59,209 nucleotides of DNA, taken from positions 43,594-102,802 of the forward strand of contig JAAVCU010000017.1 of NCBI GenBank assembly GCA_014802175.1, given 5' to 3'. Numbering within the stretch: the first letter of the stretch is position 1; each line of letters opens with the position of its first letter. The notes beneath the pieces are model-generated. The model was not told where the DNA came from. It saw only the letters and a list, made by a program, of their open reading frames with translations, and searched no databases. A program made the position numbers and the translations under genes. The stretch is from Bacteroides sp. GTDB lineage: Bacteria; Bacteroidota; Bacteroidia; Bacteroidales; Muribaculaceae. Shown here piece after piece: positions 11,792 through 32,973 of this stretch.

Positions 11792-11807
11792 ATGGCTGAT
11801 TAAATAA

Positions 11808-11848
11808 AAATAAATAAGGGTAAGCGTTGAGCTTACCCTTATTTATTT
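11808..11848. terminator. Bidirectional terminator between ffh and the GH127 gene
   Basis: A perfect 18-bp stem (AAATAAATAAGGGTAAGC and its complement) with a 5-nt loop GTTGA. The A-rich and T-rich stem ends let it serve both the rightward ffh and the leftward glycosidase gene. Confidence 0.9.
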
Positions 11849-11888
11849 CCGGTATTTCGGGGCAGTTATCGCATAACTGCCCCTTCGG

Positions 11889-13946: not shown

Positions 13947-13974
13947 ATAGTTGCTATATTGTTATTTTTATCAC

Positions 13975-15288: not shown

Positions 15289-15374
15289 AATAATTATTGA
15301 TATTAGGATTTGTCGGTTAACAATAAAGTCGTTTAAGCAATCTCTATGAGTGACAACAATCATTGAGATTGCTA

Positions 15375-15382
15375 CAAAATTA
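15375..15382 (-). promoter_or_regulatory. Putative -7 box (TAATTTTG) for the jelly-roll/GH127 operon
   Basis: TAATTTTG on the minus strand, about 85 bases before the chosen start at 15288. The surrounding 297-base divergent gap shows no other recognisable feature except the opposite -7 box at 15533-15540. Confidence 0.4.
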
Positions 15383-15532
15383 TCTGTTTTTGATTCATCA
15401 GAACGCCAAATATTATTCAATATTAGCCAAAATGGATTCATAAAGTTTTAGTTTATGCTGGGAGAATGTTTCCAATAGGACGATTCTTGATTAAAATAGC
15501 GTCAAATGGGTGTATGAATAAAAAATAATATG

Positions 15533-15540
15533 TATATTTG
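15533..15540 (+). promoter_or_regulatory. Putative -7 box (TATATTTG) for the giant T9SS protein gene
   Basis: TATATTTG fits TAnnTTTG and lies 45 bases upstream of the ATG at 15586, in an AT-rich tract. Confidence 0.55.
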
Positions 15541-15585
15541 CAATGTAAAATGCGAATAATAAAACACAATTAAATAATATCAATT

Positions 15586-18500: not shown

Positions 18501-20988
18501 CGGTGTCTACACTCTCACAGCCGAGAAATTCGGTTATGAGCCCGAACGCAAGGAGAATGTGGAGGTGGCCGATGCTGATGTGGATCTGACATTCTCGCTT
18601 GAGAAAATTCCGGTATATAACATAAGCGGTAAGGTTGTAGACCCGGTTGGAAACACAATAGCAGGTGCGGAGATTGCACTCGAAGGTTATACTCCTTTGA
18701 AGACCACTACAGATGAGAATGGAGCATTCTCATTCGCAGAGGTGGTAAGCAAGCCGACGACTCTGTTTGTGAAGGCTCCGTGGTACACAGCTGCGACTGC
18801 CTCTTCCGATCTTAATGAGGATTGGGCAACCGGTAACATCGAATTAGGCTACGCCCATTATTCACCGTCTGCCCCCGCAGTGGAAGCTGCTGATAACGGT
18901 ATGGCATTAAAATGGAATGGACCGGACAAGATGACCACCCTGCGCTATGACAGCGGTGAAATTTATGGTCAGTTTGGATTTGAGGCAACTATTGGCACAA
19001 TCGTTGTAGGTAATGTATTCCGCACACCTATGGAGCTTCATAATGTGAGCTGGATGACTACAATAGCAGGCGGACCGCACAACACCATGAATCTTTACAT
19101 CTACGACCTCGACGAGGAGGGCAATCCGAATGGAAAAATCCTCTACAGCGAGCGTGCGATTGCAAATGTAGATGGCGAATGGCTTGAGCATGAGCTTACA
19201 GAGGCGGTGTCTGCACCGAACGGTTGCCTTGTAGCTCTTAATTATCCCGGCTTCCACGGCATAGCAATCGATAATTCATCAAGAAGCTATCCGGTAGTGG
19301 AGAAGACCGTGGCGTATTCTGTAGACTATAATAATGGAGAGTTTTCTTATGTGGATGCTGAGACAGTAGGTGGCAACTTGCTCATTCGTGCGGAGGGTTA
19401 TCTCTATCCGGCAGAGAACGATCCTGTGACAACAGTTGGTGAGGCGCGTGGTGAACTTCCTGCATTTCAGGCGTACAAAGTTATGCGTTCGGATAACGGA
19501 GGAGAATGGAAAGAACTTTCCGCCAAAACTGAGGGCACAGAGTTCGTAGACGCTGAATGGAATGCACTCCCCGTTGGTAGCTATCAGTACGCAGTGGCTT
19601 CTGTATATCCTGATGGATCCGTTTCTGACAATGCCCTTTCCTGCTATCTGTTTAAGAATATGGAGGCTGATATCAAGCTCCAACTTTCCACTAATTCACA
19701 TTCAGGAAAGGCCGATGGCGCATCTGTGAATATCATTGGATCAAATGGTGATGTCTACAGTAGCGTGGTTGGTGCGGAAGGATACGTAGAATTCAACGAT
19801 ATCTTCCGTCAGGCTTATCAGTTGACTGTAGCTCTTCCCGGTTACACAGAAATCGAAAAGACTCTGAATCTTTCAGGAGAAGAGAAATCGTTTACTTACG
19901 ACCTTGTATTGGAAGAGATTATAGCTACTCCCGTCAATATTGAGTTTGATGGTGATGAAGAGAAGGGTTACAACCTGACATGGAACGAGTCGGGAGAGAT
20001 TGTCGATGGCTTTGAAGAGCATGAACCCTTCACAGTGGCATCGCCCGGCGAGATTGGCTGGCAGTATGTCGATGGCGACGGCGCGCGTACATTTGCAGAG
20101 TCTGACTTCCGCTTCCCTGGAATCACTCAGCCAATGTCTATGATGGCTTTCTTCCCGAAACTTACAGAACCTTCGATCTACGACGCACGTTCCGCTTCAC
20201 GTCCGCATACCGGCGATGCAGAACTCGCATGTTTTGCCGGATACACCGGTAGCGATGACTGGTTTATCTCACCTCGTCTCAACTATCACAGTGACTTCAC
20301 ATTCTCTTTCTGGGCACGTGGATATTCACAGACTTACGGAGAGATTATCCAGGTAGGTTACTCCACAACCACTCCGGATCCGGAGGCATTCAAATGGCTC
20401 AGCGAAATAATTGATGTGCCTAAACAGGTATGGACTGAGTATTCTTACACCGTTCCGGCAAACGCCAAGTATGTGACAGTGCATGTTCTTTCTCCCGATG
20501 GATTCATCCTCTTTATGGATGATGTCAAGATTTCATCTGGAAAGGGATTTGATCTCAATACTGCTGTTACCGGACCTGAGGTTGAGTACGAGATCCTTCT
20601 TGACGGTAAGACAATCATGAACACCGAGGAAACGGAATTGCATCTTGATCCGGTCGGAGCCGGCACACATACATTGGGCATCCGTTCGGTATATGCTTCC
20701 GGCAACTCAGATGTGGCTGAGATCAACTTCGGAGAATCCGGTGTTGAGGAGATATTGAAATCCGATAAGATCACGGTGTCGCCCAACCCTGCGGTAGACT
20801 ACACTGTAGTCAGCACTGAATTTGACAAGGCAGTGCTCTATACTCTCTCCGGTCAGATGATAGCCACCTATGACGGTGTAAACTCCGACAAGGTAATCAG
20901 ACTTGATAATGTAACATCCGGTCTCTACCTGCTGACAATCAAAACTACCGACGGCCGTCAGGCCTCTGTCAAGCTGACTGTGAAATAA
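15586..20988 (+). CDS. Giant multidomain type IX secretion cargo protein
   Basis: An 1,800-residue surface or secreted protein. It has a Sec signal peptide (cleavage near ARA, residue 28) and a repeat-containing beta-propeller-like region (about 30-280). Two fibronectin type III-like modules follow (about 285-480), then a choice-of-anchor-J/MAM-like jelly roll (about 485-640), a CARDB-like module (about 645-745), and two carboxypeptidase-regulatory-like modules (about 935-1070, starting IYGVVTDAEGNPAADVKV and YNISGKVVDPVGNTIAGAEI). A second jelly roll lies near 1480-1650. The last 70 residues form a T9SS type A sorting domain (VSPNPAVDYTV, LYTLSGQMI, LDNVTSGLYLLTIK). No catalytic signature is visible, so it is probably an adhesin or substrate-binding surface protein. 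It is transcribed away from the GH127 operon and converges on fecR. Domain limits are approximate. Confidence 0.85.
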   Translation: MQHEQLNCFLKRLSLLVLTLLSSWIARAADVGEAYAILAFSENEPRKNNHVVSFNYLGDEDAAYTSVVTFSTTSTAGAFSTDAYYIATSRMNGTTEVPADLVKMDLDKATYSTVGELKGFSYLISDLTFDHSTNTMYGVSKISDSQSILFTVDLATAATKQLATLDRRFYTLAVSMDGQLYGISAAGEFCKINKLNGEVTVVRNTGYLPVNFQTMTFNHLTGKIYWAAGVRKFSDSGLVVMDVSTLIEIDPATGNTVECKSLVDAQLAGLYIPGAAAASGAPASVSDLKLTPGENGADSAILSWVNPSKTFGGEILKTISAVKIYRDDEEIASVAGETGKLQSYTDNIINEGLGSNHVYKIFAVNAQGDGAPAVISGFIGKDVPAAVTNLNVTRLSPASARISWDASEGSEHGGWTDPAVTYTVIRNPGNVEVATNITETEFEQEPIDVSAAYTFTVVANNSCGSSASAVSEAITLGPKWGMPFKAEFDEEELAQWTVFDANEDSNSWTYSNLSWAKASGAYFTTANNDGDDWLVSREMEFDSNATYKYKFRYITSPAHNAELVVLKGNDPASGVVALSAIEFPSCWEPKEVEGTFKIEEGGDYYLAIHEITPKGNSYLLIDRLEIEKLVDHNLQASSLNGNAAPIVGHAYNYTATVVNRGSEDATGFTVTLSDNLGNKLTTALYSETLASGESADVPLSVDFTEEMAAITSLSAKVEWAADEIASDNETAPLEITVMPIGTPEELRIGTQKSTSYYQPINLYSGKYSATLDIYGASEIGIKAGRITGLRYTYNSSYSSPKGVGIKVYLANTDRTKANDGWIPEEEMTLVYDGQVDMASGSNMTLALDFDQSFDYDGRNLAVLVTTNLDNAGATYYSGVYFPYYDSPLEGNKAYCYPKGYSVTNPFDFTQEGTSRYSSVVTLMVQSGGSAIYGVVTDAEGNPAADVKVSVEEVHAVANSDENGVFKFDFIPNGVYTLTAEKFGYEPERKENVEVADADVDLTFSLEKIPVYNISGKVVDPVGNTIAGAEIALEGYTPLKTTTDENGAFSFAEVVSKPTTLFVKAPWYTAATASSDLNEDWATGNIELGYAHYSPSAPAVEAADNGMALKWNGPDKMTTLRYDSGEIYGQFGFEATIGTIVVGNVFRTPMELHNVSWMTTIAGGPHNTMNLYIYDLDEEGNPNGKILYSERAIANVDGEWLEHELTEAVSAPNGCLVALNYPGFHGIAIDNSSRSYPVVEKTVAYSVDYNNGEFSYVDAETVGGNLLIRAEGYLYPAENDPVTTVGEARGELPAFQAYKVMRSDNGGEWKELSAKTEGTEFVDAEWNALPVGSYQYAVASVYPDGSVSDNALSCYLFKNMEADIKLQLSTNSHSGKADGASVNIIGSNGDVYSSVVGAEGYVEFNDIFRQAYQLTVALPGYTEIEKTLNLSGEEKSFTYDLVLEEIIATPVNIEFDGDEEKGYNLTWNESGEIVDGFEEHEPFTVASPGEIGWQYVDGDGARTFAESDFRFPGITQPMSMMAFFPKLTEPSIYDARSASRPHTGDAELACFAGYTGSDDWFISPRLNYHSDFTFSFWARGYSQTYGEIIQVGYSTTTPDPEAFKWLSEIIDVPKQVWTEYSYTVPANAKYVTVHVLSPDGFILFMDDVKISSGKGFDLNTAVTGPEVEYEILLDGKTIMNTEETELHLDPVGAGTHTLGIRSVYASGNSDVAEINFGESGVEEILKSDKITVSPNPAVDYTVVSTEFDKAVLYTLSGQMIATYDGVNSDKVIRLDNVTSGLYLLTIKTTDGRQASVKLTVK

Positions 20989-21155
20989 CACTTATAAGTA
21001 TATCTAATGCAAATCCTCCCGCCCGGAATGTTCCGGACGGGAGGATTTGGTTTCTTTGATTTATACTCCGCTCTGTGAGTCATATATTTGCTGGCGGCAT
21101 GTGAAATCTGAGCCGAACAAAGAATTGACAGGATTAAAAGAAATTTTACTTTCAT
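20958..21155 (-). CDS. Possible small secreted protein downstream of fecR
   Basis: A 65-codon frame that starts 7 bases after the fecR stop. Its first 20 residues (MKVKFLLILSILCSAQISHA) are a textbook Sec signal peptide with an A-x-A-like cleavage site. The remaining 45 residues are encoded across the convergent terminator hairpin and the last 31 bases of the giant T9SS gene, which makes a conserved function for that part doubtful. It may be a real peptide, or the surviving start of a gene whose remainder was lost. No homologue is recognised. Confidence 0.35.
   Translation of the reverse strand: MKVKFLLILSILCSAQISHAASKYMTHRAEYKSKKPNPPVRNIPGGRICIRYTYKCYFTVSLTEA
21011..21048. terminator. Bidirectional terminator between the T9SS gene and fecR
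   Basis: An 18-base arm AAATCCTCCCGCCCGGAA pairs with its downstream complement with one mismatch and almost no loop. It lies between convergent genes and can serve both. Confidence 0.8.
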
Positions 21156-21162
21156 GATGATA

Positions 21163-22137
21163 TTATTTTGAATTAAATCTCAGGCTGTTGTCCTTGTCAT
21201 CAAAGATTATGGAAATTCCCAGCGTATGCTCAAGGATATATATGGTTTGAGTGAGGTTGTCGGTAGGTAAGGATCCTGTGAAATACACATCCTCTATCTT
21301 TTCATCGATACGGATCCTTCTGCCATAATATAGTTCAAGTTCATCGGCAACCTCAGCGAGTTGTGCGGATGAGAAATAGATAGTGGATTTCCCTGCCAGA
21401 CGCTTGCATCTTACAGAATCGTCGATAACTGTAATCTCACCGGTTTTAGAGTTAATAATAGCCGTTTCTCCGGGGCTCAGCAGCTTCGTGCAATCCGACA
21501 CCATAGACACAACCTGCAACGAGCCTTCCTCCAGATGGATCTCTGCCTTATCTTTATCTTCACGTGCGTAAACGGAGAAGATAGTGCCTAACACGCGTAT
21601 CTCGAAATCAGATATTTTCAAGGTGAACGGAGCATCCGGATTCTTTGCGATATTAAATCTTCCTTCACCGGAATATTCAATCTGCCTGTAGGTGGAGTTA
21701 AATGTTTCCAGAGAATAAGAGAGAGAGGATTTGGGTCCCAGCTCTATTTTGGATCCGTCGGGCAGGATGGTGTTTGAAAATTCACCCTTGTCGGTGGAAA
21801 TTGTAGTTACTTGAGAGATATACGGTTGATATTTCTTTAAGTCGTTATAGCTGTTAAACATCACTAAGCTGCAAACAATGATGGTGGGAACCAGCACTGC
21901 GGCGCATGCCGTGAGAAAGCGGCGGATATTGCGACGGTGTTTCTCAGTCTTAATCTCCGCGTTAAGTTTCTCCTGTAAGGAATCGATCTCAGAAGAGGTG
22001 AAAGAGAACTGAGATCCGGCGTCATCAAGATGGCAGCTTAGTTCCTCGTCGCTCATCATCCCGACATCTTTCCTGAAATCGAGAAGCTCAGAAGAATTCA
22101 TTTTCCCATTCTTGAATTTATTTACTCTATCGTCCAT
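21163..22137 (-). CDS. FecR family anti-sigma factor (DUF4974)
   Basis: A 324-residue inner-membrane regulator. A cytoplasmic sigma-binding region (residues 1-70) is followed by one transmembrane helix (about 73-95, FLTACAAVLVPTIIVCSLVMF), a periplasmic FecR domain (about 110-210, with LPDGSKIELGPKSSLSY and VLGTIFSVYA) and a C-terminal DUF4974 module (about 250-320). The family senses the STN domain of a TonB-dependent receptor and releases the ECF sigma factor. It lies 19 bases downstream of the sigma gene and opposite the STN-bearing SusC gene, the standard layout of such a switch. Confidence 0.93.
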   Translation of the reverse strand: MDDRVNKFKNGKMNSSELLDFRKDVGMMSDEELSCHLDDAGSQFSFTSSEIDSLQEKLNAEIKTEKHRRNIRRFLTACAAVLVPTIIVCSLVMFNSYNDLKKYQPYISQVTTISTDKGEFSNTILPDGSKIELGPKSSLSYSLETFNSTYRQIEYSGEGRFNIAKNPDAPFTLKISDFEIRVLGTIFSVYAREDKDKAEIHLEEGSLQVVSMVSDCTKLLSPGETAIINSKTGEITVIDDSVRCKRLAGKSTIYFSSAQLAEVADELELYYGRRIRIDEKIEDVYFTGSLPTDNLTQTIYILEHTLGISIIFDDKDNSLRFNSK

Positions 22138-22156
22138 AGTTATATATTTGCAGCAA

Positions 22157-22735
22157 TTATAAACTCAGGTTGCTTCCTAAGATATCCAATTGTTCTTTTA
22201 AAAGTTTCAATCCGATTGAAATATTGTTTCTGACTGTTTTCTCTGAAATCTGTAGATGCGATGCAATCTCTTCATTTGTCATACCTTTGAGTCTTGAAAG
22301 TATCAGCAGGTTCTTAATCTTCGGAGGAAGCGCATCGAGTGCTTTATTCAGTAGATTGCAGAAATCGCGATATTCCAATTGATTACGATCTTCACTTATC
22401 AGTTCGTTTTGGAAAAGCATATAATCTTCATAGACAGGGGCGTTTAGCGAATGCCTGAAAAAATCTATTCTCCGGCGGTAAGCGATCGAGAACAGAAAGG
22501 TTGCGATATTCGTATCCTCGTCAAGTTCTTCATGCTTTTTCCATAGGCTCATGAAAATATCATGGACAATCTCCTCCGCATCCTCTTTGCTTTGAGTGGC
22601 GCAGGCAACATAGTTGATAAGTCTTCGTGCATATAATCGGTACACCAAATTAAATGCGTCGAGCGACCCCCTTTTCAGGAATCTGACAAGCATCAGGTTT
22701 GATATGTTTGATGAATTATCCAATTTATGCGACAT
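22157..22735 (-). CDS. ECF RNA polymerase sigma factor (FecI/RpoE-like)
   Basis: A 192-residue ECF sigma factor with region 2 at about residues 14-90 (FNLVYRLYARRLINYV, EEIVHDIFMSLWK, FLFSIAYRRRIDFFR) and region 4 at about 130-185 (LPPKIKNLLILSRLKGMTN, EEIASHLQISEKTVRNNI). It forms a cis switch with the FecR protein just downstream and most likely drives the divergent SusC-SusD operon. The Bacteroides FecI-like expansion usually controls nutrient-uptake loci in this way. No unusual residues are seen. Confidence 0.93.
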   Translation of the reverse strand: MSHKLDNSSNISNLMLVRFLKRGSLDAFNLVYRLYARRLINYVACATQSKEDAEEIVHDIFMSLWKKHEELDEDTNIATFLFSIAYRRRIDFFRHSLNAPVYEDYMLFQNELISEDRNQLEYRDFCNLLNKALDALPPKIKNLLILSRLKGMTNEEIASHLQISEKTVRNNISIGLKLLKEQLDILGSNLSL

Positions 22736-22746
22736 TAAAATCGCAG

Positions 22747-22754
22747 CAAAATTA
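22747..22754 (-). promoter_or_regulatory. Putative -7 box (TAATTTTG) for the ECF sigma gene
   Basis: TAATTTTG on the minus strand, 12 bases before the sigma-gene start. The rest of the 155-base divergent gap to susC probably holds the ECF-dependent promoter, but I cannot identify it by eye. Confidence 0.4.
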
Positions 22755-22890
22755 TGATAAAAAAGCGATAACTCCTAAGAGATTCGGGATAATTGCAAAA
22801 ATGTTTTAGAACATAAAAAATCATCGGGACAAATACTTTTCGGCAACGATTACAAAGTTAGACGAACATTTCATTTAATACCTAATATAC

Positions 22891-25800
22891 ATGAACAGAA
22901 ACTTTGCAAGGAGGCTATTCTTATTACTGTTTTGTATGGTGTTATGTGTCGATTCTTTCGCGCAGAGCCATAGAAATGTCACAGTTGGTATAGAGAATGG
23001 CAAATTAAAGACTCTTTTTGAGTCGATCGAAAAACAAAGCGACTATGTGTTTTCCTATCGCGACGATCTTATCAAAAATAAGCACGTCACGATTAACCTG
23101 AAAGATGCTCCGGTGCAGAAAGTGCTCGACAAGGCATTGGCAGGTACAAATCTATCGTACAAGATAGTGTCAGACAAATCCATCATCATCACTGAGGCGA
23201 CAGCAACGGCCAAGAAAGATGAAGCGAAGACTTCTGTGTCCGGCACAGTGGTTGACCAGAACGGTGAGCCTATCATCGGCGGAACCGTATTGGTGAAAGG
23301 TACTCAGCAGGGCACTTCTACAGACCTTGAAGGAAACTACACCCTTAATAATGTTCCCGTGGGTGCGACACTGGTGTTCGCTTCCGTAGGTTATAATCCG
23401 GTTGAGATAAAAGCTTCCAACACTGCGCGTCTTGCCAAGGTGGAAATGCTTGAAGATTCGCAGTTGCTCGATGCCGTGGTAGTGGTTGGTTACGGTACGC
23501 AGAAGCGTGCCAATCTGACAGGTGCAGTGTCAACCATCGGTGCTGACGACTTGAACAATCGTCCTGTTTCATCGGCTGCCGGCGCGTTGCAGGGTGCGGA
23601 TCCATCCGTAAACCTTACGTTCAACACAGGTTCGTTGGATTCCGATTATTCGGTGAATATACGTGGTGTGGCCTCAATCAACGGAGGGTCACCATTGGTT
23701 ATATGTGATGGTATGGAGGTCAGCCTGAGTCAGATCAACCCCAATGATATTGAATCGATATCAGTATTGAAAGATGCGTCGTCATCGGCTATCTACGGTG
23801 CGAAGGCTTCTTCTGGTGTGATTCTCATTACCACCAAAAGTGGCAAGAACTCAGATGGGAAAGTAAATGTAAACTATTCGGGTCGTGTTGGATGGCGCCA
23901 GAACACAACCTCAACCGACTTCATCACTACCGGTTACGATCATGTAAGCATTGTCAATGAGTTCTATGAGAAATATCAGGGTAAGAAGATGTGGGGTTAC
24001 ACCGACGATGAGATGCAGATGCTCTATGATCGCCGTAACGATAAGACAGAGAATCCCGATCGTCCGTGGGCAATCCGTGAAAATGGGAAATTGCGTTTTT
24101 ATGCCAACTACGACTGGTATGATTATTTCTATCGCAAGACACGCCCCGAAACCGAACACAATCTTTCCGTGACCGGTGGAAATAAGAATCTGAATTACTT
24201 TGTGAGTGGACGTTTCCTCTCGCAGGATGGTATTTTCAAGATCTATAACGATAATTTCAAGAACTATTCATTCAGGGCGAAACTCAATGCCAAATTATTC
24301 TCATTTGTAAGATATTCGGGTAACTTCAACTTCAATGCTACCGAATACAAGTACGCCGGGTATTACAATGAGCAGGCCACAATCCATAACCTTCAATCCA
24401 ACATCAACTCCGCAGTCATGCCTTTCACTCCGGAGGGTAATGTGGTGCAGTATGTAAACACCATGACCGGTGCCAACTCACCGTTAGGTGCTGGTCACGG
24501 AGGTTTCCTTACCGCCAACGAGGCGCGCAACTCCCGTGGTAATAAAGATGTGATCATCACCAATCAGTTGGATTTTGATATCACTAAAGATCTTGTTATT
24601 ACAGGATCGTATTCATATCGTTATCGCAACCGTCAGATCAACCGCCGCAATATGCCCTTTGATTATGAGGATAAAAACGGTAAGATGACAACGTTTACCT
24701 CAGGAACGGTTCTGGACTATTATCAGGAGATACATAATAATATCAACCGCCATAGCGTGAATGTGTATGCAACCTATAATCATCTTTGGAAAGATGCACA
24801 TAACTTCACAGCCGTAGCCGGTTTCCAGTTTGAAGATGACAGGAACACTCAGGTCTCTGTAAGACAGGATGATCTGCTGAGCAAGGATCTGAGCTCATTC
24901 AGCGTGGCAACCGGAGCGACGACACTTACACAATCTATCGCCGCTTATCGCACGTTGGGATATTTCGCGCGTGTCAATTATGATTACCAAGGTAAATATC
25001 TTGTGGAGGCAAGCGGACGATTCGACGGAACATCGCGATTTGCCAAGAGCGATCGTTGGGGTTTCTTCCCTTCTGCGAGTTTCGGTTGGCGTATGAGTCA
25101 GGAAAGTTTCTGGGAGCAGCTGGCAAGTGTGTGGAGCAATAGTAAACTCCGTTTCTCGGTAGGTAGCTTGGGCAACCAGCAGGTGAATACATACGCTTAT
25201 TTCGACCAGATCGCTACCGACAACATTATGAGTTCCTACACATTCGACGGTGCGAACAAAGCAAATTATGCATCTGTATCAGATCCCATTTCTTCGGCTC
25301 TGACCTGGGAGACCGTTACTACCTACAACTTCGGTCTTGACCTCGGATTCTTTAACAACCGTTTGAGTGCCACTGCCGATGTCTTTATCCGCGACACCAA
25401 GAATATGCTTACTCAGTCGCTGACATTGCCCTCCGTTTTCGGTGCGAAAACCCCGAAGGAGAACTGTGCGGATCTTAGAACCAACGGATGGGAGCTTTAT
25501 GTAAGATGGAACGATGAGTTCAAGCTTGCCGGACGTCCGTTCAACTATAGTGTTTCAGCCACAATCGGTGACTACAAATCCAAAATCACCAAATACAATA
25601 ACCCCGACCGTCTGCTCTCAAGCTATTATGAGGGAAAGGTGTTAGGTGAAATCTGGGGATATTCCGTAGCCGGACTGTTTGCTACCGATGAAGAGGCCGC
25701 TGCATATCAGGCGCAGATCAATGATAAGGCAGTAAACCAGCGTGTATATAACAGTAAGAATGAGTCAAAACTGATGGCCGGTGATGTCAAGTTCATCGAC

Positions 25801-26406
25801 CTCGACGGAGACAATGTGATTTCAGAGGGTTCCGGCACCGTAGATAACCCCGGTGATATGCGTGTGATCGGAAATTCACTTCCGCGTTATAACTATTCAT
25901 TCCGTGCAGATTTGAGTTATTTCGGATTTGACGTGTCGGCTTTCTTCCAGGGCGTTGGCAAACAGGATTGGTATCCTACCCAGAATGCCTACGACTTCTG
26001 GGGTCCGTATTCATTCCCGTCGTTATCTTTCATCCACACTGATTTCATGAAGAATGTGTGGTCAGAGGAGAATCCGAATGCTTACTTCCCTCGTCCGCGT
26101 GGTTATGCCTCATATTCCGGAGGTGCGCTGGGTGTAGTCAACGACCGATATTTACAGAACGCTGCTTACCTGCGTCTGAAAAACCTTACTGTGGGTTACA
26201 CCATCCCATTGAAAAGCAAGAAGGTTATCAACCAGCTTCGCGTTTACTTCACGGGGGAGAACCTTTTCTATTGGTCTCCTTTGAAGAAATATACCAAAAC
26301 AGTTGATCCGGAGCTTACCAATACGTCGTCGACATATAACGCCGGCACCGGCGTGGGTTACGGCTATTCACGCTCATACTCAGTTGGAGTTGATCTTAAA
26401 TTCTAA
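22891..26406 (+). CDS. SusC/RagA-type TonB-linked outer membrane receptor with STN signalling domain
   Basis: A 1,171-residue outer-membrane transporter. The signal peptide (residues 1-25) is followed by an STN domain (about 29-102, NVTVGIENGKLKTLFESIEK), a carboxypeptidase-regulatory-like domain (about 115-190, VSGTVVDQNGEPIIGGTVLV), a plug (about 205-315, VVVGYGTQKRANLTGAVS) and a barrel ending in SVGVDLKF with a terminal aromatic residue. The STN domain is the hallmark of receptors that signal to FecR/ECF pairs, which lie divergently upstream. SusD follows after 20 bases. The imported substrate cannot be read from sequence; downstream enzymes suggest a phosphodiester. Confidence 0.95.
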   Translation: MNRNFARRLFLLLFCMVLCVDSFAQSHRNVTVGIENGKLKTLFESIEKQSDYVFSYRDDLIKNKHVTINLKDAPVQKVLDKALAGTNLSYKIVSDKSIIITEATATAKKDEAKTSVSGTVVDQNGEPIIGGTVLVKGTQQGTSTDLEGNYTLNNVPVGATLVFASVGYNPVEIKASNTARLAKVEMLEDSQLLDAVVVVGYGTQKRANLTGAVSTIGADDLNNRPVSSAAGALQGADPSVNLTFNTGSLDSDYSVNIRGVASINGGSPLVICDGMEVSLSQINPNDIESISVLKDASSSAIYGAKASSGVILITTKSGKNSDGKVNVNYSGRVGWRQNTTSTDFITTGYDHVSIVNEFYEKYQGKKMWGYTDDEMQMLYDRRNDKTENPDRPWAIRENGKLRFYANYDWYDYFYRKTRPETEHNLSVTGGNKNLNYFVSGRFLSQDGIFKIYNDNFKNYSFRAKLNAKLFSFVRYSGNFNFNATEYKYAGYYNEQATIHNLQSNINSAVMPFTPEGNVVQYVNTMTGANSPLGAGHGGFLTANEARNSRGNKDVIITNQLDFDITKDLVITGSYSYRYRNRQINRRNMPFDYEDKNGKMTTFTSGTVLDYYQEIHNNINRHSVNVYATYNHLWKDAHNFTAVAGFQFEDDRNTQVSVRQDDLLSKDLSSFSVATGATTLTQSIAAYRTLGYFARVNYDYQGKYLVEASGRFDGTSRFAKSDRWGFFPSASFGWRMSQESFWEQLASVWSNSKLRFSVGSLGNQQVNTYAYFDQIATDNIMSSYTFDGANKANYASVSDPISSALTWETVTTYNFGLDLGFFNNRLSATADVFIRDTKNMLTQSLTLPSVFGAKTPKENCADLRTNGWELYVRWNDEFKLAGRPFNYSVSATIGDYKSKITKYNNPDRLLSSYYEGKVLGEIWGYSVAGLFATDEEAAAYQAQINDKAVNQRVYNSKNESKLMAGDVKFIDLDGDNVISEGSGTVDNPGDMRVIGNSLPRYNYSFRADLSYFGFDVSAFFQGVGKQDWYPTQNAYDFWGPYSFPSLSFIHTDFMKNVWSEENPNAYFPRPRGYASYSGGALGVVNDRYLQNAAYLRLKNLTVGYTIPLKSKKVINQLRVYFTGENLFYWSPLKKYTKTVDPELTNTSSTYNAGTGVGYGYSRSYSVGVDLKF

Positions 26407-26426
26407 GACCTAAAAATCGATTAAAG

Positions 26427-28148
26427 ATGAAAAATTATTATAAATTGCTGTTGTTGCCTCTTGTGTTGGGGGTTACAAGTTGTGAGTTGACAAAGATTCC
26501 GGAAGATACAATCAGTCCTGATGCTTACTTCCAGAATGCGACCCAATTGGAATTGTGGACCAACAATTTCTATGCTCAGTTCGACAATGCCGAGAATGCA
26601 GCGGGTCTGAATGCCGACGATATGATCGACAATTCGTTGGGAGATGTGATGATGGGACAGCGTTCAGCCGCCGACGAGAGTGGTTGGACCTGGACTCGCC
26701 TGAGAGATATCAACTATTATCTCCAGAATTCATATCGTTGCACGGATGCTGCTGCAAAACAGCAATATGATGGTGTGGCATATTTCCACCGGGCTTATTT
26801 CTACTTCATCAAGGTGCGTCGTTATGGAGATGTTCCCTGGTATGATCAGGTGATCAAAACTACCGATACCCACCTGCTTTACAAGGCACGTGATAGCCGC
26901 GAGGTGGTGATGGAACATATCATGGAGGATCTTGATAAGGCAATTGAAATGTTGCCGACGAAGAATGATGTGGTCCGGGTGACTAAATGGACAGCTCTGG
27001 CTTTGAAGTCGCGCGTAGCTTTATTTGAAGGTACATTCAGAAAATATCATGGTCTCCCCAATTCGGAGGAGTACCTGAAGCTTGCCGCCGATGCTGCCGA
27101 GCAGTTTATAAGTCAGAGTAGCTATAAACTTTATGAGGAGGGCACGACTCCTTATCGCGATCTCTTCAACAGCGATTCCGCGAAGTCAGAGGAGGTAATT
27201 CTTGCAAGAACCTATAGCACAACAGCCAGTGTGATGCACGGAGTTCAGTTCAATATCGTTAACGATCGTTGTGGCTTCACAAGAAGATTCATGAATCACT
27301 ACCTGATGGCCGACGGCACTTACTATTCGGCTCAACCCGGTTACGACACCAAGGAGTTTGTGAATGAAGTGACAGGGCGTGATCCCCGTATGGCGCAGAC
27401 CGTGCTTTGTCCCGGTTATGTGCAGAAGGGAGGCACCGCAGTGACTCCGAACGGACTGAATGCGCTTACCGGTTATCAGCCTATAAAGTATGTAGGTGAG
27501 GCGGCCTATGACGGAGCCAACAAGGCTTTCACCGATTTCCCTTTGTTCAGAACCGCCGAGGTATATCTGAATTTCGCTGAGGCTAAAGCCGAGTTGGGAA
27601 CATTGACTCAGGCAGATCTCGACAAGTCTATAAACCGTATCCGCAAACGCGCCAATATGCCAGACCTTAACCTCAGCACAGCGAATGCTAATCCCGATCA
27701 GCTGATGAAGGAGTATTATCCCAACTGCTCATCGGCAAATCAGGGTGTGATCCTTGAAATTCGCCGTGAGCGCACCATTGAGCTTTGCATGGAGGGCTTC
27801 CGCATCTATGATATAATCCGTTGGAAAGAGGGTCAGCAATTGACCAAACCTTTCTATGGTTGCTACTTCAGCGGCGAAGGTGAATATGACATGGACAACG
27901 ATGGTGTTAATGACCTCTTGCTTTACAGCAGCGACAAGGGTTCCTTCAAGGGCACAGCCAAGAAGCTTGGCACAGATGTGGTGCTTACCGGAGGAAACAG
28001 TGGCTGGATCCATGCTCTTGGCAAGATCACAATCACTTGGGATGAGAATCGAGATTATCTTTGGCCGATTCCGGCGAGTGAGCGTGTTCTTTCCGGAGGT
28101 GCGCTGACGCAGAATCCGGGTTGGAGCGATAGTACAAGTTTCGATTAG
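26427..28148 (+). CDS. SusD/RagB family surface lipoprotein
   Basis: A 573-residue lipoprotein (lipobox VTSC, Cys19) of the SusD/RagB family, the ligand-binding lid of the SusC transporter. Family blocks include LWTNNFYAQFDN near residue 45, AKQQYDGVAYFHRAYFYF (TPR helices), and near the C-terminus ILEIRRERTIELCMEGFRIY and the ending ALTQNPGW. Cys19 is followed by ELTKIPED rather than an acidic run, yet SusD proteins are normally surface exposed. Co-transcribed with the SusC gene; a hairpin after the stop may lower expression of the genes beyond. Confidence 0.95.
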   Translation: MKNYYKLLLLPLVLGVTSCELTKIPEDTISPDAYFQNATQLELWTNNFYAQFDNAENAAGLNADDMIDNSLGDVMMGQRSAADESGWTWTRLRDINYYLQNSYRCTDAAAKQQYDGVAYFHRAYFYFIKVRRYGDVPWYDQVIKTTDTHLLYKARDSREVVMEHIMEDLDKAIEMLPTKNDVVRVTKWTALALKSRVALFEGTFRKYHGLPNSEEYLKLAADAAEQFISQSSYKLYEEGTTPYRDLFNSDSAKSEEVILARTYSTTASVMHGVQFNIVNDRCGFTRRFMNHYLMADGTYYSAQPGYDTKEFVNEVTGRDPRMAQTVLCPGYVQKGGTAVTPNGLNALTGYQPIKYVGEAAYDGANKAFTDFPLFRTAEVYLNFAEAKAELGTLTQADLDKSINRIRKRANMPDLNLSTANANPDQLMKEYYPNCSSANQGVILEIRRERTIELCMEGFRIYDIIRWKEGQQLTKPFYGCYFSGEGEYDMDNDGVNDLLLYSSDKGSFKGTAKKLGTDVVLTGGNSGWIHALGKITITWDENRDYLWPIPASERVLSGGALTQNPGWSDSTSFD

Positions 28149-28153
28149 GTGAT

Positions 28154-28195
28154 ATTTATGCTCGGGGTGGCATTTCGGTTGCTCCGAGCATAAAT
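28154..28195 (+). terminator. Hairpin between susD and the first GDPD gene
   Basis: A perfect 12-bp stem ATTTATGCTCGG / CCGAGCATAAAT with an 18-nt loop, just after the susD stop and 27 bases before the GDPD start. With no strong T run it may act as a partial terminator or RNA-stability element setting SusCD above enzyme expression. Confidence 0.6.
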
Positions 28196-28221
28196 TTCAA
28201 TACAAAAATAACAGAAGAATT

Positions 28222-29127
28222 ATGCTTAGAAAATCTTTAAGCGCATTGGCGATGCTGATAGTGTGCATCAGTGCGTGGGCGGATAATGCACCCTGCCGGG
28301 TTGATACTCTTCTTGGCTATATGTCAGATAAGGGCAAATCCGACCATGTCATGATCTTTGCTCATCGTGGAAACTGGCGTAACTCAGCTGAAAATTCGGT
28401 GCAGGCATACCAGGAATGTATTGACGAGAAGATAGATGGTATAGAGATCGATGTGCAGATGACCAAAGACAGTGTGCTGGTGATTATGCACGATGATACC
28501 GTTGACCGTACCACTACTGGTAAGGGGAAGGTTTCTGATCTTACGTTGGCGGAAATCAAGGCTCTTAATCTTGTTAGCCCGATCGGGGTCGTGACCCGGC
28601 AGAAGGTGCCTACTCTGGAGGAGGTGTTCAAGCTTGCAAAAGGAAAGATCCTGATGCAGGTTGATAAGTGGAGACCATACGCAAAAGAGATAATTGAGCT
28701 TGCACGTAAAAATGATTGCGAGCGCCAGATAATTATCCGGACCACAGAGAAACGCGAAGCCATGGATCGTAAATTTGGCGATCTGTTCAAGAATGTGGTT
28801 TTGATGCCGGTGCTGGTATGTAAAGGTGAGCCGGATAATGACAAGCTTGACGACTTTATGTCAAATTATAATTGCCCGGTGATAGCTCTTTCGTTTACCA
28901 AAGATAATTTCCCGGTGTTGAGCAGGATTCCGGAAATTCAGGATGCAGGTTACAGAGTCTGGATCAATTCCCTGTGGGGTTCTCATAATGGAAATCATGA
29001 CGATGAACTGGCGCTGACCGATTACGAGAATAGTTATGGCTGGCTTCTGAATCGAGGAGCCAACATCATATTCAGCGATAATCCGATGTGGCTGAAAAAG
29101 TATCTGATGAAAGTGGGAAGATGGTAA
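28222..29127 (+). CDS. Secreted glycerophosphodiester phosphodiesterase (GDPD) 1
   Basis: A 301-residue exported enzyme with a signal peptide (cleavage near AWA, residue 20) and a GDPD TIM barrel. Catalytic and metal-binding residues are recognisable: AHRG (His48-Arg49), ENS (Glu57-Asn58), EIDVQ (Glu75, Asp77) and MHDD (His90-Asp91). The family cleaves glycerol-3-phosphate from glycerophosphodiesters; GlpQ-type relatives also attack teichoic acid. It sits 73 bases downstream of susD and 35 bases before a paralogue, so it probably belongs to the same locus. Confidence 0.92.
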   Translation: MLRKSLSALAMLIVCISAWADNAPCRVDTLLGYMSDKGKSDHVMIFAHRGNWRNSAENSVQAYQECIDEKIDGIEIDVQMTKDSVLVIMHDDTVDRTTTGKGKVSDLTLAEIKALNLVSPIGVVTRQKVPTLEEVFKLAKGKILMQVDKWRPYAKEIIELARKNDCERQIIIRTTEKREAMDRKFGDLFKNVVLMPVLVCKGEPDNDKLDDFMSNYNCPVIALSFTKDNFPVLSRIPEIQDAGYRVWINSLWGSHNGNHDDELALTDYENSYGWLLNRGANIIFSDNPMWLKKYLMKVGRW

Positions 29128-29162
29128 GTCTTCGTTGTAAATAGAAAATATCAAAGACAGTT

Positions 29163-30059
29163 ATGAAGAAAATATTTTTAGCATTATTATGCTGCGCGAA
29201 CATCTTCGGATGTTTTGCTCAAGACAGAGTTTCAAAAATCAGGAATCGTCTCCTTTCAGGCGATACTTCTTCGGTGATTGTGGCATCGCATCGTGGCGAC
29301 TGGCGTAATTTCCCCGAAAATTCGCTGGAAGCAATCGACAATGCGATTGCAATGGGTGTGGATATTGTGGAACTTGATGTTCACCGCACAAAAGACAGTG
29401 TGCTGATACTCATGCATGACCCAAAACTTGACCGCACCACTACAGGTAAGGGGCTGATTGCCGACACAACCATGGCTTATATCAAGACCCTCAAATTGAA
29501 AAACGGCTGTAATATCCGCACTATCCACAATGTGCCCACTCTGGAGGAGGCCCTATTGCATGCCAAAGGGAAGATTATGATAAATCTGGATAAGGCTGAC
29601 AGGTATTTTGATCAAGTCTATGACCTGATGCAGAAAACCGGCACCACAAAGCAGATCATTATGAAAGGTAATGATTCCGCTGAGGCTGTCAAGGCAAAAT
29701 ATGGAGAATATTTGAATGATGTTATCTATATGCCGATCGTAAATCTGGATAAGGATAATGCGGAGTCGCAGATCGAGACATTCATTAGCGATATGCACCC
29801 GGTGGCGTTTGAATTACTTTACAAGAAGGATTCAAACCCTTTGCCCGCGAAGTTGAAAGATTCTCTGAAAGGGAGATCTTTGATATGGTATAACACGCTT
29901 TGGGACACTATGGCTGGAGGTCACGATGATGATGCGTCTTTGAAAGATTTCAGCAACGGTTACGGCTATCTGATCGATAATCTCGGAGCACGTATAATCC
30001 AGACAGATCGTCCGCAGTTTTTGCTCGATTATCTGCGGAGCCGAAATCTTCACGATTGA
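29163..30059 (+). CDS. Secreted glycerophosphodiester phosphodiesterase (GDPD) 2
   Basis: A 298-residue paralogue of the preceding gene with the same catalytic set: SHRG (His43-Arg44), ENS (Glu52-Asn53), ELDVH (Glu70, Asp72) and MHDP (His85-Asp86). The first 20 residues form a signal peptide ending FAQ; a Cys at 17 (IFGC) makes a lipoprotein possible but the lipobox is poor. The two enzymes share the N-terminal active-site half but differ widely in the C-terminal half, suggesting different leaving groups. A 16-bp terminator hairpin follows. Confidence 0.92.
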   Translation: MKKIFLALLCCANIFGCFAQDRVSKIRNRLLSGDTSSVIVASHRGDWRNFPENSLEAIDNAIAMGVDIVELDVHRTKDSVLILMHDPKLDRTTTGKGLIADTTMAYIKTLKLKNGCNIRTIHNVPTLEEALLHAKGKIMINLDKADRYFDQVYDLMQKTGTTKQIIMKGNDSAEAVKAKYGEYLNDVIYMPIVNLDKDNAESQIETFISDMHPVAFELLYKKDSNPLPAKLKDSLKGRSLIWYNTLWDTMAGGHDDDASLKDFSNGYGYLIDNLGARIIQTDRPQFLLDYLRSRNLHD

Positions 30060-30136
30060 TTCAAGCAGGTAAATAAGGTTTATAAGAAGATTGTAAGTGA
30101 GTCTGAGGACTTGCAGAATAGGTAGATGTTAGTTAT

Positions 30137-30172
30137 GGAGTTCCCTGTTAAACGACTTTAATAGGGAACTCC
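30137..30172 (+). terminator. Intrinsic terminator after the GDPD pair
   Basis: A 16-bp stem GGAGTTCCCTGTTAAA with its complement (one G-U pair) and a 4-nt loop CGAC, followed by TGGTTTTA. It ends the SusC-SusD-GDPD-GDPD transcript. Confidence 0.85.
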
Positions 30173-30280
30173 TGGTTTTAGAGAGTGTTTGGTTTTAAAC
30201 CAAATTAAGAATTAAAATGAGTTTATATGATTTTTGATTTCATCACCAATGATATTACTTGTTGACCCTATTGGTTTGGA

Positions 30281-31588
30281 ATGCAAAAAGAAACGACAAT
30301 GAATGAAATGAGAAGGATATTATTTATAATCAGCGTTATATTTTCGTTAAATGCTGTTTATGCAAATGAGATATATGATGAAATAAAGCAGAATCCGAAT
30401 AAGGCAGGAGGCGTATATTTCGCTTATCCGGATACCTGTTATAATGTCACTCCTGCTCCGGCTGGTTACAAACCCTTTTACATAAGTCATATCGGTCGAC
30501 ATGGCTCCCGTTTTCTCCTGAAAGAATCGGATTACACCTTACCTTTGAAAACTCTTGAATTGGCTCATGGGTCCAATGCGCTGACTTTAAAAGGGGAAGG
30601 AGTATTTGAAGAATTGACGAAACTCTATGATTTTGCGAAATTGCGTGCCGGAGACTTGACGGAAAAGGGAGTGCGTCAGCACAAGCATATCGCCTCCCGC
30701 ATGTTCGATGCCTATCCGGAGGTGTTCAGCGGGAATAACGTGATAACGGCGCACTCCACAATGGTGATGCGCTGCGCCATGAGTATGGCTGCCTTTACGG
30801 AAAGTCTCAAGGAAAAGAATCCTGACTTGAGAGTGGTCAGGGAGCCCAGCGAGCGTAATGCTAAATATATCAACAATCCGACACCTGAACTTGCTGAATA
30901 TAATAAAGCCGACGGCCGATGGCAAACAGAATATAAGGAGCTAAGAAACAGCACAACACCATACGAGCGTATTATCCCTGAGATATTCAGCGATGCAGCA
31001 TTTATTGAAGAGCATGTTAAACCTGTCAACTTCACCTGCCAGCTTTATAATGTATTCGCGGGAATGCAAAATTTGGATGTGGAGAATGGTTTTATGAATC
31101 TATTTACGGATGAAGAACTTTACAAACTCTGGAAAATTTACAATTTCAGGATGTATGTGCATTGCTCCAATTGTGCTTACAGCAATAGGGTAGTACTGCA
31201 AAATTGCATACCCTTGCTCAATGATATGATTGAGCGTGCGGATGCTGCCATAGCAGACAAGCGGATTGGCGCAGACCTGAGATTCGGACACGATCTGAAC
31301 ATAATCCCCATGACAGCTCTGTTAGGTTTCGACGGATGTAATCACGTCGTGAGTGATCCGGAGGAGATTTGTGAAGTGTTCCAGGATTATAAGATCTCAC
31401 CGATGGCCTCCAACATACAGATGATCTTCTTCAGGAATGAAGCGGAAGACGTATTGGTAAAATTCTTGCTCAACGAGCGAGAGATCTCCATACCTTGCAA
31501 AACCGACAGCTTCCCCTTCTATCGCTGGTCGGAAGTCAGGCCTTACCTGCTCGGCCGCCTCACTACACTCACCACTGAGTCGCGCTGA
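30281..31588 (+). CDS. Secreted histidine acid phosphatase, phytase-like
   Basis: A 435-residue exported protein of the histidine phosphatase superfamily, branch 2 (phytases, MINPP and acid phosphatases). The active-site RHGSR is at residues 73-77 with His74 as nucleophile, and the proton-donor HD is in FGHDLN (His337-Asp338). A Cys-rich patch lies near 295-310. The signal peptide runs from MRRILFIISV to VYA. Start is uncertain: ATGs at 30281, 30299 and 30308 are in frame and the last two sit closest to the signal peptide. It follows the GDPD terminator and probably has its own promoter. Phosphomonoesters such as inositol phosphates or glycerol phosphate are the likely substrates. Confidence 0.88.
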   Translation: MQKETTMNEMRRILFIISVIFSLNAVYANEIYDEIKQNPNKAGGVYFAYPDTCYNVTPAPAGYKPFYISHIGRHGSRFLLKESDYTLPLKTLELAHGSNALTLKGEGVFEELTKLYDFAKLRAGDLTEKGVRQHKHIASRMFDAYPEVFSGNNVITAHSTMVMRCAMSMAAFTESLKEKNPDLRVVREPSERNAKYINNPTPELAEYNKADGRWQTEYKELRNSTTPYERIIPEIFSDAAFIEEHVKPVNFTCQLYNVFAGMQNLDVENGFMNLFTDEELYKLWKIYNFRMYVHCSNCAYSNRVVLQNCIPLLNDMIERADAAIADKRIGADLRFGHDLNIIPMTALLGFDGCNHVVSDPEEICEVFQDYKISPMASNIQMIFFRNEAEDVLVKFLLNEREISIPCKTDSFPFYRWSEVRPYLLGRLTTLTTESR

Positions 31589-31617
31589 TAAGTTTACTAA
31601 TGTAAGTAAATAGATGC

Positions 31618-31665
31618 TAAAAGAGGATGAGAGAAGCGGTGTGGCTTCCTGCTCATCCTCTTTTA
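31618..31665. terminator. Bidirectional terminator between the phosphatase gene and galE
   Basis: A perfect 14-bp stem TAAAAGAGGATGAG / CTCATCCTCTTTTA with an inner GAAGC/GCTTC pairing, between convergent genes. Confidence 0.88.
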
Positions 31666-31718
31666 AGTTGAATTTCAGATATAGAGGATCTGACGTTGAT
31701 TCAGTATAATACCCTCGA

Positions 31719-32744
31719 TTATTTTGCGGTGACTTTGCATTGCCAAGCCCAGGCGTTTTTCATTGTCTCGTCGATGGGAACCTGTGCGGTCCAGCCGAGT
31801 ACTTCGTTGGCTTTCTTCGGGTCTGCCCAGATCTTTTCGATGTCTCCGGCACGGCGTGCGCCGATCTTGTGGGGAACCTTGACGCCGGTAGCGCGCTCGA
31901 AGGAGTCAATGAGCTCAAGCACGGAGAGTCCGCGGCCTGTGCCGAGGTTGAAGATCTCTACAGCATCGGTGTCTTGGCCATCAAGCATACGTTTCATTGC
32001 GATTACGTGTGCCTTGGCAAGGTCAACAACGTCGATGTAGTCGCGGATGCAAGAGCCGTCGGGGGTGTTGTAGTCGTTGCCGAACACTGTCAGCTCCGCA
32101 CGGATACCTGCCGCAGCCTGAGTGAGGTAGGGCACGAGGTTCTGGGGTACACCCAAGGGAAGCTCACCGATCATTGCTGACGGGTGTGCGCCGATCGGGT
32201 TGAAGTAGCGGAGAAGGATGCTCTTGATGGGGGCGCCGCTCTTGATGTAATCCTCGATGATCTCTTCGGAAATCTGTTTAGTGTTTCCGTAAGGAGAGGT
32301 GGCGGGTTTGATGGGAGCGGTCTCGTCGATCGGGTTCTTGTCGGGCTCACCGTAAACGGTGCATGAGGATGAGAATACGATACCTTTCACTCCGAACTCA
32401 GGCATGAGGTCGAGGAGGTTGATGAGAGTGTTGAGGTTGTTGCGGTAATAGAGCAGAGGTTTCTGCACTGATTCGCCAACGGCCTTTGATGCTGCAAAGT
32501 TGATGATCCCTTTGATTCCGGGGTTCTCTTCGAAGAGTTTGCGGAGTGTGTTGATGTCTGTGCAGTCTCCCTCTACAAATGCGGGGCGGATGCCGGTGAT
32601 GGCCTCGATGCCGTCGATGACGTTGGCATTGGAGTTGGAGAGGTTGTCGATGATCACAACCTCATAGCCGGCATTCTGCAGCTCAACCACGGTGTGGCTG
32701 CCGATATAACCGGTGCCACCGGTAACTAATATTTTGGTTTTCAT
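31719..32744 (-). CDS. galE: UDP-glucose 4-epimerase
   Basis: A 341-residue short-chain dehydrogenase-type epimerase that interconverts UDP-glucose and UDP-galactose. The NAD-binding GGTGYIGSHTVVEL (residues 8-21), the catalytic Ser-Ser-Cys strand FSSSCTVYGEP and YGNTK (catalytic Tyr and Lys) are intact. GalE C-terminal blocks GSCIRDYIDVVDLAKAHV and FNLGTGRGLSVLE are present. The gene lies downstream of a sugar nucleotidyltransferase gene on the same strand across a 225-base repeat-bearing gap. It supplies UDP-galactose for envelope glycans and allows galactose use. Confidence 0.96.
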   Translation of the reverse strand: MKTKILVTGGTGYIGSHTVVELQNAGYEVVIIDNLSNSNANVIDGIEAITGIRPAFVEGDCTDINTLRKLFEENPGIKGIINFAASKAVGESVQKPLLYYRNNLNTLINLLDLMPEFGVKGIVFSSSCTVYGEPDKNPIDETAPIKPATSPYGNTKQISEEIIEDYIKSGAPIKSILLRYFNPIGAHPSAMIGELPLGVPQNLVPYLTQAAAGIRAELTVFGNDYNTPDGSCIRDYIDVVDLAKAHVIAMKRMLDGQDTDAVEIFNLGTGRGLSVLELIDSFERATGVKVPHKIGARRAGDIEKIWADPKKANEVLGWTAQVPIDETMKNAWAWQCKVTAK

Positions 32745-32820
32745 ATTTGATTTTTTATAAGGAGAAGTTGGGAAATGCGCTCACTGCGTTCGCGCCACAA
32801 TCTCTGATCTGGAAAAATTT

Positions 32821-32927
32821 CCAATTCCATAGAATTCTCTTCGGCGCCAGAAGGGGAGGGCGGAGGGAAATCCAATTCCATAGAATTTTCTTCGGCACCC
32901 GGAGGGGAGGGAATTTCTGATCTGGGG
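32821..32927. repeat. 51-bp direct repeat, two copies, between galE and the nucleotidyltransferase gene
   Basis: CCAATTCCATAGAATT followed by a TTCTTCGGC-like stretch and a G-rich block starts at 32821 and again at 32872, an exact 51-base shift. A second shared string TCTGATCTGG flanks both sides (32802 region and 32916 region). The arrangement looks like an internally duplicated intergenic element. The short minus-strand frame it creates (repeating GAEENSMEL) is not judged a gene. Confidence 0.65.
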
Positions 32928-32944
32928 AAGGGGAGCAATGAATC

Positions 32945-32973
32945 CTAACTTCTAATTCCTAATTCCTAATTAG
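32945..32973. repeat. 7-bp-period repeat (CTAATTC), four units
   Basis: CTAA cores start at 32945, 32952, 32959 and 32966, an exact 7-base period, directly at the 3' end of the nucleotidyltransferase gene (its stop lies in the last unit). Confidence 0.85.

Follow-up and report, generated by a model that had tools for sequence, protein, structure and literature searches.

We analysed a stretch of 59,209 nucleotides from a Bacteroides sp. genome (assembly GCA_014802175.1, contig JAAVCU010000017.1, positions 43,594 to 102,802; family Muribaculaceae in the GTDB lineage), referred to here as the window. It carries genes for a SusC/SusD (SusCD) transporter pair followed directly by genes for two glycerophosphodiester phosphodiesterases (GDPD1 and GDPD2). 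Bacteroidota feeding is defined by SusCD systems, and the majority of those described import glycans. We find that SusCD–GDPD1–GDPD2 is a conserved unit, and its gene content makes it likely that the unit is a SusCD-type uptake system for glycerophosphodiesters.

A conserved SusCD–GDPD unit

The block lies on the forward strand. The first gene, susC (22891..26406), encodes a TonB-dependent transporter (TIGR04056, 849 bits) with the domain order STN, CarbopepD_reg_2, Plug and barrel, the STN signalling domain matching PF07660 at E 6.5e-12. After 20 bp comes susD (26427..28148), for a surface lipoprotein (PF07980, E 4e-47) in which we recognised a lipobox-like VTSC by eye; the GDPD1 gene (28222..29127; PF03009 E 3.9e-28, PF16387 E 2.9e-25) follows after 73 bp and the GDPD2 gene (29163..30059; PF03009 E 1.2e-27) after a further 35 bp. 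Both enzymes combine GDPD and DUF4996 domains and are predicted to be secreted. Divergent from susC, on the reverse strand, lie genes for an ECF sigma factor (22157..22735; TIGR02985, 134.6 bits against a cut-off of 126.4) and a FecR-type anti-sigma factor (21163..22137; PF04773 E 3.3e-13, FecR_C E 9e-9). Domain profile searches of the block found none of the glycoside hydrolase or lyase domains of a classical polysaccharide utilisation locus (PUL), and no Rfam family matched positions 20000–33000, so no RNA element was recognised there. All the genes named in a preliminary description of this DNA, which also included a histidine phosphatase downstream, are present and intact; the range it gave, 22157–31588, takes in every one of them except FecR, which is real and lies outside.

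A scan of public genomes with the window SusD yielded 28 related loci. In a SusD tree of 64 rows, the window and seven loci (L040–L046) form one clade (SH-aLRT 97), in which the window SusD is 79% identical to that of L040 and 65–70% identical to its Bacteroides and Hoylesella homologues. Two GDPD genes lie downstream of SusD in seven of the eight clade loci, window counted, and they are directly behind it in six; intergenic gaps are short in the five clade loci measured. Six of the eight also have a putative OPA-family (GlpT/UhpC-type) MFS transporter gene. The plain row SusC, SusD, GDPD1, GDPD2, MFS is found in Hoylesella loescheii (L044) and, with FecR and ECF genes divergent from SusC, in a metagenome-assembled genome (MAG) labelled Clostridium (L040). 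Bacteroides stercorirosoris (L041), B. timonensis (L042) and B. cellulosilyticus (L045) have a sulfatase-family gene between GDPD2 and MFS, called by PF00884 in L041 and by a custom hidden Markov model (HMM) in the other two, and a Muribaculum MAG (L046) has an EEP gene between SusD and two GDPD genes, with MFS last. We conclude that SusCD–GDPD1–GDPD2 is a conserved unit; the association of the enzyme pair with susCD, on which the preliminary description was built, is thus upheld in relatives. The L040 record is named Clostridium yet has SusCD and FecR genes typical of Bacteroidales, and its label is probably wrong.

GDPD1 and GDPD2 match PF03009 at 99.6 and 98.1 bits (gathering score 23.6), and their N-termini, judged by eye, resemble signal peptides. 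Their catalytic residues are intact, as first described: H, R, EN, E.D and H are invariant in 14 aligned sequences, and we take the His, Glu and Asp among them to have their usual catalytic roles. In classical GDPDs the third metal ligand is presumably Glu; at that position all 14 sequences, and PDB 3i10, have Asp, a change that we take as conservative. A putative GDPD by name, 3i10 is the closest solved protein to both GDPD2 (E 7.8e-96) and GDPD1 (E 3.1e-60), with near full-length alignment. GDPD1 is 58–63% identical to GDPD1 of L040, L041, L042, L044 and L045, and GDPD2 is 74–85% identical to GDPD2 of L040, L041 and L044. Identity between GDPD1 and GDPD2 is only 34–36%, and the two orthologous types are kept distinct across loci. 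Both are predicted to hydrolyse glycerophosphodiesters.

Glycerol-3-phosphate link, recurrence and candidate substrates

The companion MFS proteins match TIGR00881 (PgtP-type), UhpC and GlpT models at 204–269 bits, all under the curated cut-offs; with the protein from contig C21 of the window genome included, the maxima are 272 bits against 407.75 for TIGR00881 and 229 bits against 632.55 for TIGR00712. R58, R273 and H175 are invariant in nine aligned OPA/GlpT proteins, one of them above the glpT cut-off, and align with GlpT motifs, where we take R45 and R269 as the phosphate-binding Arg pair and H165 as the His. In the window genome, which is 77% complete, an OPA gene on contig C21 (product 79% identical to the L040 OPA protein) adjoins a third GDPD–DUF4996 gene. 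A second OPA gene, on contig C9, is clustered with DeoR-type regulator, GDPD-like, GlpA/GlpD-like (28% identical to a G392 protein) and glpB/glpC-like genes, of which glpB and glpC (from order and sequence) and DeoR were named by eye. The best order-level SusD matches outside the window genome (55%) are in genomes G245 and G392, whose SusCD are 52–55% identical and stand in the row glpD-like, glpT, SusC, SusD, type IX secretion system (T9SS)-tailed protein, NAGPA-domain protein, EEP (L076, L077; the last three genes in G392, and GlpT in G245, were named by similarity). GlpT of G392 exceeds the glpT equivalog cut-off (639.4 versus 632.55 bits); the glpD-like proteins of G392 (314.9 bits) and G245 (311 bits) fall under theirs (360). 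Mainly because GDPD with OPA and glpD with glpT both surround one SusCD family, we take glycerol-3-phosphate as the product, and the block seems, from these gene orders, built to yield it.

We propose a route in which gene content, conservation and OPA/glp linkage come from sequence, and locations, reactions and signalling from knowledge of the families. At the cell surface, SusD and SusC would bind a molecule that contains a glycerophosphodiester, and TonB-powered import would deliver it to the periplasm. There the two secreted GDPDs would split the diester into glycerol-3-phosphate and an alcohol. An OPA-family antiporter, whose gene follows the GDPD genes in most relatives and stands beside the third GDPD gene here, would move glycerol-3-phosphate inward, and the STN domain of SusC together with the divergent FecR/ECF pair may make transcription responsive to the substrate. 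We infer both the order of these steps and the substrate. The phosphodiester-scavenging system first described thus keeps its SusCD and GDPD pair, gains a link to OPA and glp genes, and loses its phosphatase.

Pairing of SusCD and GDPD genes exceeds chance. Of the 54 SusD places listed for the order-level genome set, we took neighbourhoods for the 28 best plus G038, 29 in all. Across the order this GDPD type is uncommon: 12 of 393 genomes carry it, at 16 places, and nine of the 16 are part of a SusCD locus or no more than 10 kb from one (two in the window, two on contig C21 of G061, and one each in G055, G096, G169, G294 and G144). With the window genome excluded, the SusD family occurs in 7 of 11 GDPD-family genomes versus 29 of 381 others (p 8e-6). 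At locus level, GDPD, EEP, NAGPA or S1/P1-type genes are found downstream in 15 of 20 SusD clusters, which comprise 39 loci with SusD at 600 bits or more by custom HMM (lower-scoring loci being excluded), versus 1 of 20 control loci hand-picked from weak SusD matches (p 1e-5). GDPD absence in the control loci rests on custom HMMs; a Pfam scan of 55 control downstream genes gave, among the 25 of 77 families listed, two Exo_endo_phos matches and one alkaline phosphatase. GDPD and OPA genes also accompany more remote members of this SusD family (L037, L048, L079, L136) and SusCD pairs of other lineages (L082, L122, L128; SusD 41–44 bits by custom HMM), and SusCD with GDPD but no OPA gene seen occurs in L123, L125 and L131.

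Several observations weigh against an uptake system for glycerophosphodiesters, or against taking these figures at face value. The genome-level p value ignores kinship and the size of the SusCD repertoire. For the locus-level comparison, enzyme classes were picked after the loci had been seen, HMMs were built from members, a cluster counted as positive if any member was, clusters were compared with single loci, and L060 and L108, whose genes were missed by a simple caller, were set by hand. One cluster hangs on a weak GDPD match (L065, 28 bits), without which the count is 14 of 20 (p 4e-5), and the control loci include one alkaline phosphatase gene among their downstream genes. Six of the 16 GDPD places are without SusCD (contig C21 of the window genome, C16 of G061, G392, G295, G308 and G156), and that of G373 is on a short contig. 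Within the clade, a Muribaculum MAG (L043; SusD 66% identical) has SusC and SusD alone, with no GDPD after SusD; its genome encodes three GDPDs elsewhere, one adjoining an OPA gene. The window operon itself has no OPA gene, and a search of 36 same-genus genomes, many of them incomplete, turned up no SusD orthologue (best match 36% over part of the protein). Lastly, EEP, S1/P1 nuclease, NAGPA and nucleoside-hydrolase genes accompany SusD relatives further away, so the transporter family, taken in full, is not tied to glycerophosphodiesters.

These distant relatives include L049, with an S1/P1 nuclease gene (also in L051, by similarity); L052, with NAGPA and DUF4988 (also in its relatives and L050 by custom HMM, and in L060 by an open reading frame (ORF) of equal size and place); and L063, with a nucleoside-hydrolase gene (also in L065, by eye). 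Two SusCD paralogues in the window genome (48–49%) are accompanied, one by EEP, DUF5689 and GH3, and the other by T9SS-tailed proteins and a large EEP protein. From this gene content, the wider SusD family is linked to phosphodiester chemistry generally, with substrates that probably differ. We tentatively raise the possibility, which we hold to be the less likely case, that this SusCD branch consists of phosphodiester-specialised transporters, the window subclade serving glycerol-phosphate polymers or diesters, as the GDPD pair with OPA or glpD–glpT would suggest, and others serving nucleic-acid-like or sugar-phosphodiester polymers, as would be suggested by EEP, S1/P1 nuclease, NAGPA and nucleoside hydrolase. 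If so, gut Bacteroidales would feed on their neighbours' teichoic acids and other phosphate-backbone polymers.

Among these loci we also noted that in L052–L058, L062 and L064 (Bacteroidales MAGs) the related SusCD is followed by three large proteins (~1103, 825 and 1391 aa), with an EEP-like gene upstream beside FecR in six of them. Two SusCD–GDPD–OPA loci each encode a beta-propeller protein (L079:8070–9524 and L082:14877–16829) that contains PKD or fn3 domains. In a B. cellulosilyticus genome (G434, locus L132), SusCD is followed by several GDPD-like genes in tandem, some in frames of 535–612 aa, and an adjoining frame contains masked bases.

SusCD transporters typically serve molecules too large for porins, and for that reason we favour an oligomeric substrate, for instance a fragment of glycerol-phosphate teichoic acid, over a single headgroup. 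A glycerol-phosphate polymer (Gram-positive teichoic acid or a glycerophosphorylated glycan), trimmed by the periplasmic GDPDs, is a credible candidate, if not quite a probable one: in addition to this argument from size, GlpT, GlpD-like, NAGPA (phosphodiester glycosidase) and EEP proteins in sister loci would suit a glycosylated glycerol-phosphate polymer, but a domain search recognised no endo-acting teichoic-acid hydrolase in the window block. We are more doubtful that the same system takes up a small soluble lipid headgroup of host or diet (glycerophosphocholine, -ethanolamine, -glycerol or -inositol) as a phosphate supply. Such headgroups would be expected to cross porins without SusCD, an OPA transporter would feed glycerol-3-phosphate into carbon metabolism, and the block genes include FecR and ECF and no PhoBR-type regulator. 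GDPD chemistry is nevertheless compatible with headgroups, and the authors of a study of phosphate utilisation systems (PUS) in Flavobacterium suggest, in the excerpted text, that one of them, PUSI, serves lipid headgroups as well as nucleic acids (PMC8115612).

It is unlikely that the locus is an ordinary glycan PUL with its hydrolases elsewhere, in which the GDPDs would do no more than clear an imported glycan of glycerol-phosphate decorations. The lack of any polysaccharide hydrolase, emphasised in the preliminary description, holds for the window, and as far as annotated none of the eight clade loci has a glycoside hydrolase gene in the stretch from SusC to its final GDPD or OPA gene; this and the linkage to OPA and glp genes argue against a glycan PUL. 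The claim does not carry over to all relatives, and here the glycan PUL finds its support: the Bacteroides orthologue loci (three of the eight) add a sulfatase-family gene, and sister SusCD loci hold GH3 and a GDSL esterase beside EEP and GDPD.

The neighbouring phosphatase and the genomic setting

An HD-type histidine phosphatase gene (30281..31588, forward strand; PF00328 E 2.1e-11) follows GDPD2 after 221 bp. A 16-bp hairpin at 30137..30172 (forward strand; −24.2 kcal/mol, z −4.5), the longest site in a terminator-like scan of the window, marks the probable end of the susC–GDPD2 transcript, and a second hairpin (31618..31665, forward strand; in a 91-nt fold, −29.2 kcal/mol, z −4.2) lies between the phosphatase gene and galE. 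Both are stable, but their role as terminators is inferred: the scan gave fewer sites (8) than shuffled sequences did (mean 11.7), and the 31618 hairpin was not one of the 8. Since the first hairpin falls between GDPD2 and the phosphatase, the compact block runs from SusC to GDPD2. The earlier outline of a single block bounded by terminators was therefore right about the hairpins and wrong to enclose the phosphatase, which one of them splits off.

The phosphatase has the RHGSR and HD motifs first ascribed to it (RHGSR and GHD) and, with its RHG motif, belongs to the branch-2 histidine phosphatases. Its nearest solved chain is 7r5y (E 7.1e-69), followed by MINPP entries (~5e-50 and weaker). Its GHD is shared with 7r5y; in the aligned MINPP entry 9qyz that place is taken by HAE, which we take to be the proton-donor motif of MINPP. 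We found no phosphatase relative in the 28 related SusCD loci (of which L067 has no DNA past SusD and two, L059 and L066, are short), either by blastp of called ORFs or by tblastn of the DNA (E 1e-8), and among the eight clade loci the gene is present in the window only. Seven of nine genomes holding related SusCD loci encode a relative, at most 45% identical and in no case inside the SusCD locus fetched. The closest relatives (42–46% identical) are in 15 same-genus genomes: in 13 of these it lies on a contig other than that of the NTP-transferase gene marking the window site, in G027 one contig carries both, ~12 kb apart, and in G002 there was no NTP-transferase match. Across 106 fetched loci, tblastn detected relatives only in L075 (the G027 region, without SusCD) and L138 (contig C2 of the window genome). 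The window genome has three further relatives in tandem on C2, at L138 3445–9580, the third in a 1121-aa frame, and one on C21.

Given the missing relatives in the 28 loci, the 221-bp gap and strong hairpin in front, and GHD in place of HAE, we rejected the phosphatase as a member of the system; it is probably an independent neighbour gene, and its supposed co-conservation with susCD was not found. That the whole locus, phosphatase included, is one phytate or glycerophosphoinositol system, as the label "phytase-like" implied, is very improbable: same-strand adjacency, the PF00328 fold and the nearest solved relatives speak for it, but the points just listed stand against it, as does the identity of at most 46% to the best relatives found elsewhere.

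The block sits in a variable stretch of ~20 kb (11792–31718) between ffh (10448–11791) and galE (31719–32744) that also encodes GH127, the phosphatase and two proteins of 488 aa and 1800 aa, the latter with a T9SS tail. Of the eight same-genus regions fetched, three (L071, L072, L073) have ffh adjacent to galE; in the rest, galE has other neighbours or the contig ends. The GC content of the stretch is 46.3%, versus 49.8% and 49.7% on its flanks. The variable ffh–galE site, the lower GC content and the lack of an orthologous SusD in the 36 same-genus genomes searched suggest lateral gain of the block. We rejected the SusCD block as a core gene set of the genus, given that the best same-genus SusD match is 36% identical and that ffh and galE occur side by side without it. 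A plasmid copy was likewise rejected: there were 13 records, and the five matches listed are short, cover 2–3% of the query and, where annotated, are to a TonB receptor.

Relation to known systems

Compared by gene content, the nearest known kind of locus is the PUS (PusCD) of Flavobacterium, for which we draw on excerpts of PMC8115612. There, PUS are described as a SusCD-type pair with phosphodiesterases or PhoA, induced by low phosphate, and PusD is called polyphyletic. The window block resembles them in having a SusCD-type pair without carbohydrate-active enzymes (CAZymes) and a co-localised phosphodiesterase or phosphomonoesterase, and ECF or FecR genes are present in some PUS clusters (PMC8115612). 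It differs in its enzymes: those of PUSI are pf00149 and pf16670 proteins, Table 1 of the source has no PF03009 or DUF4996 protein, and the excerpts do not mention GlpT (PMC8115612). Low-phosphate induction of PUS has been shown (PMC8115612). PhoA1 of PUSII carries pf13653, which the authors suggest extends the enzyme to phosphodiesters (PMC8115612, as excerpted); a family look-up identifies pf13653 as GDPD_2. The joining of SusCD to a GDPD-type domain is thus already published, in so far as the excerpts describe PUSII PhoA1. In B. thetaiotaomicron, a TonB receptor/SusD pair (BT4724-25) and a GDPD gene (BT4727) appear as nearby entries in an iron-response table in the portion of PMC10434189 consulted.

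Among the open-access titles listed by our literature searches, none concerned a SusCD–GDPD–OPA/GlpT unit; the part for which we found no precedent there is the tandem GDPD–DUF4996 pair with an OPA or glp transporter. The SusCD–GDPD–OPA unit in Bacteroides, Hoylesella and Muribaculum-labelled genomes represents a testable route that could give these bacteria carbon and phosphorus from glycerophosphodiesters or teichoic-acid fragments, and culture-collection strains with the unit are B. cellulosilyticus DSM 14838, B. stercorirosoris DSM 26884 and H. loescheii DSM 19665. With classical PULs the window block shares the SusC/SusD importer and FecR/ECF regulation; where those loci have glycoside hydrolases, it has phosphodiesterases and no CAZyme.

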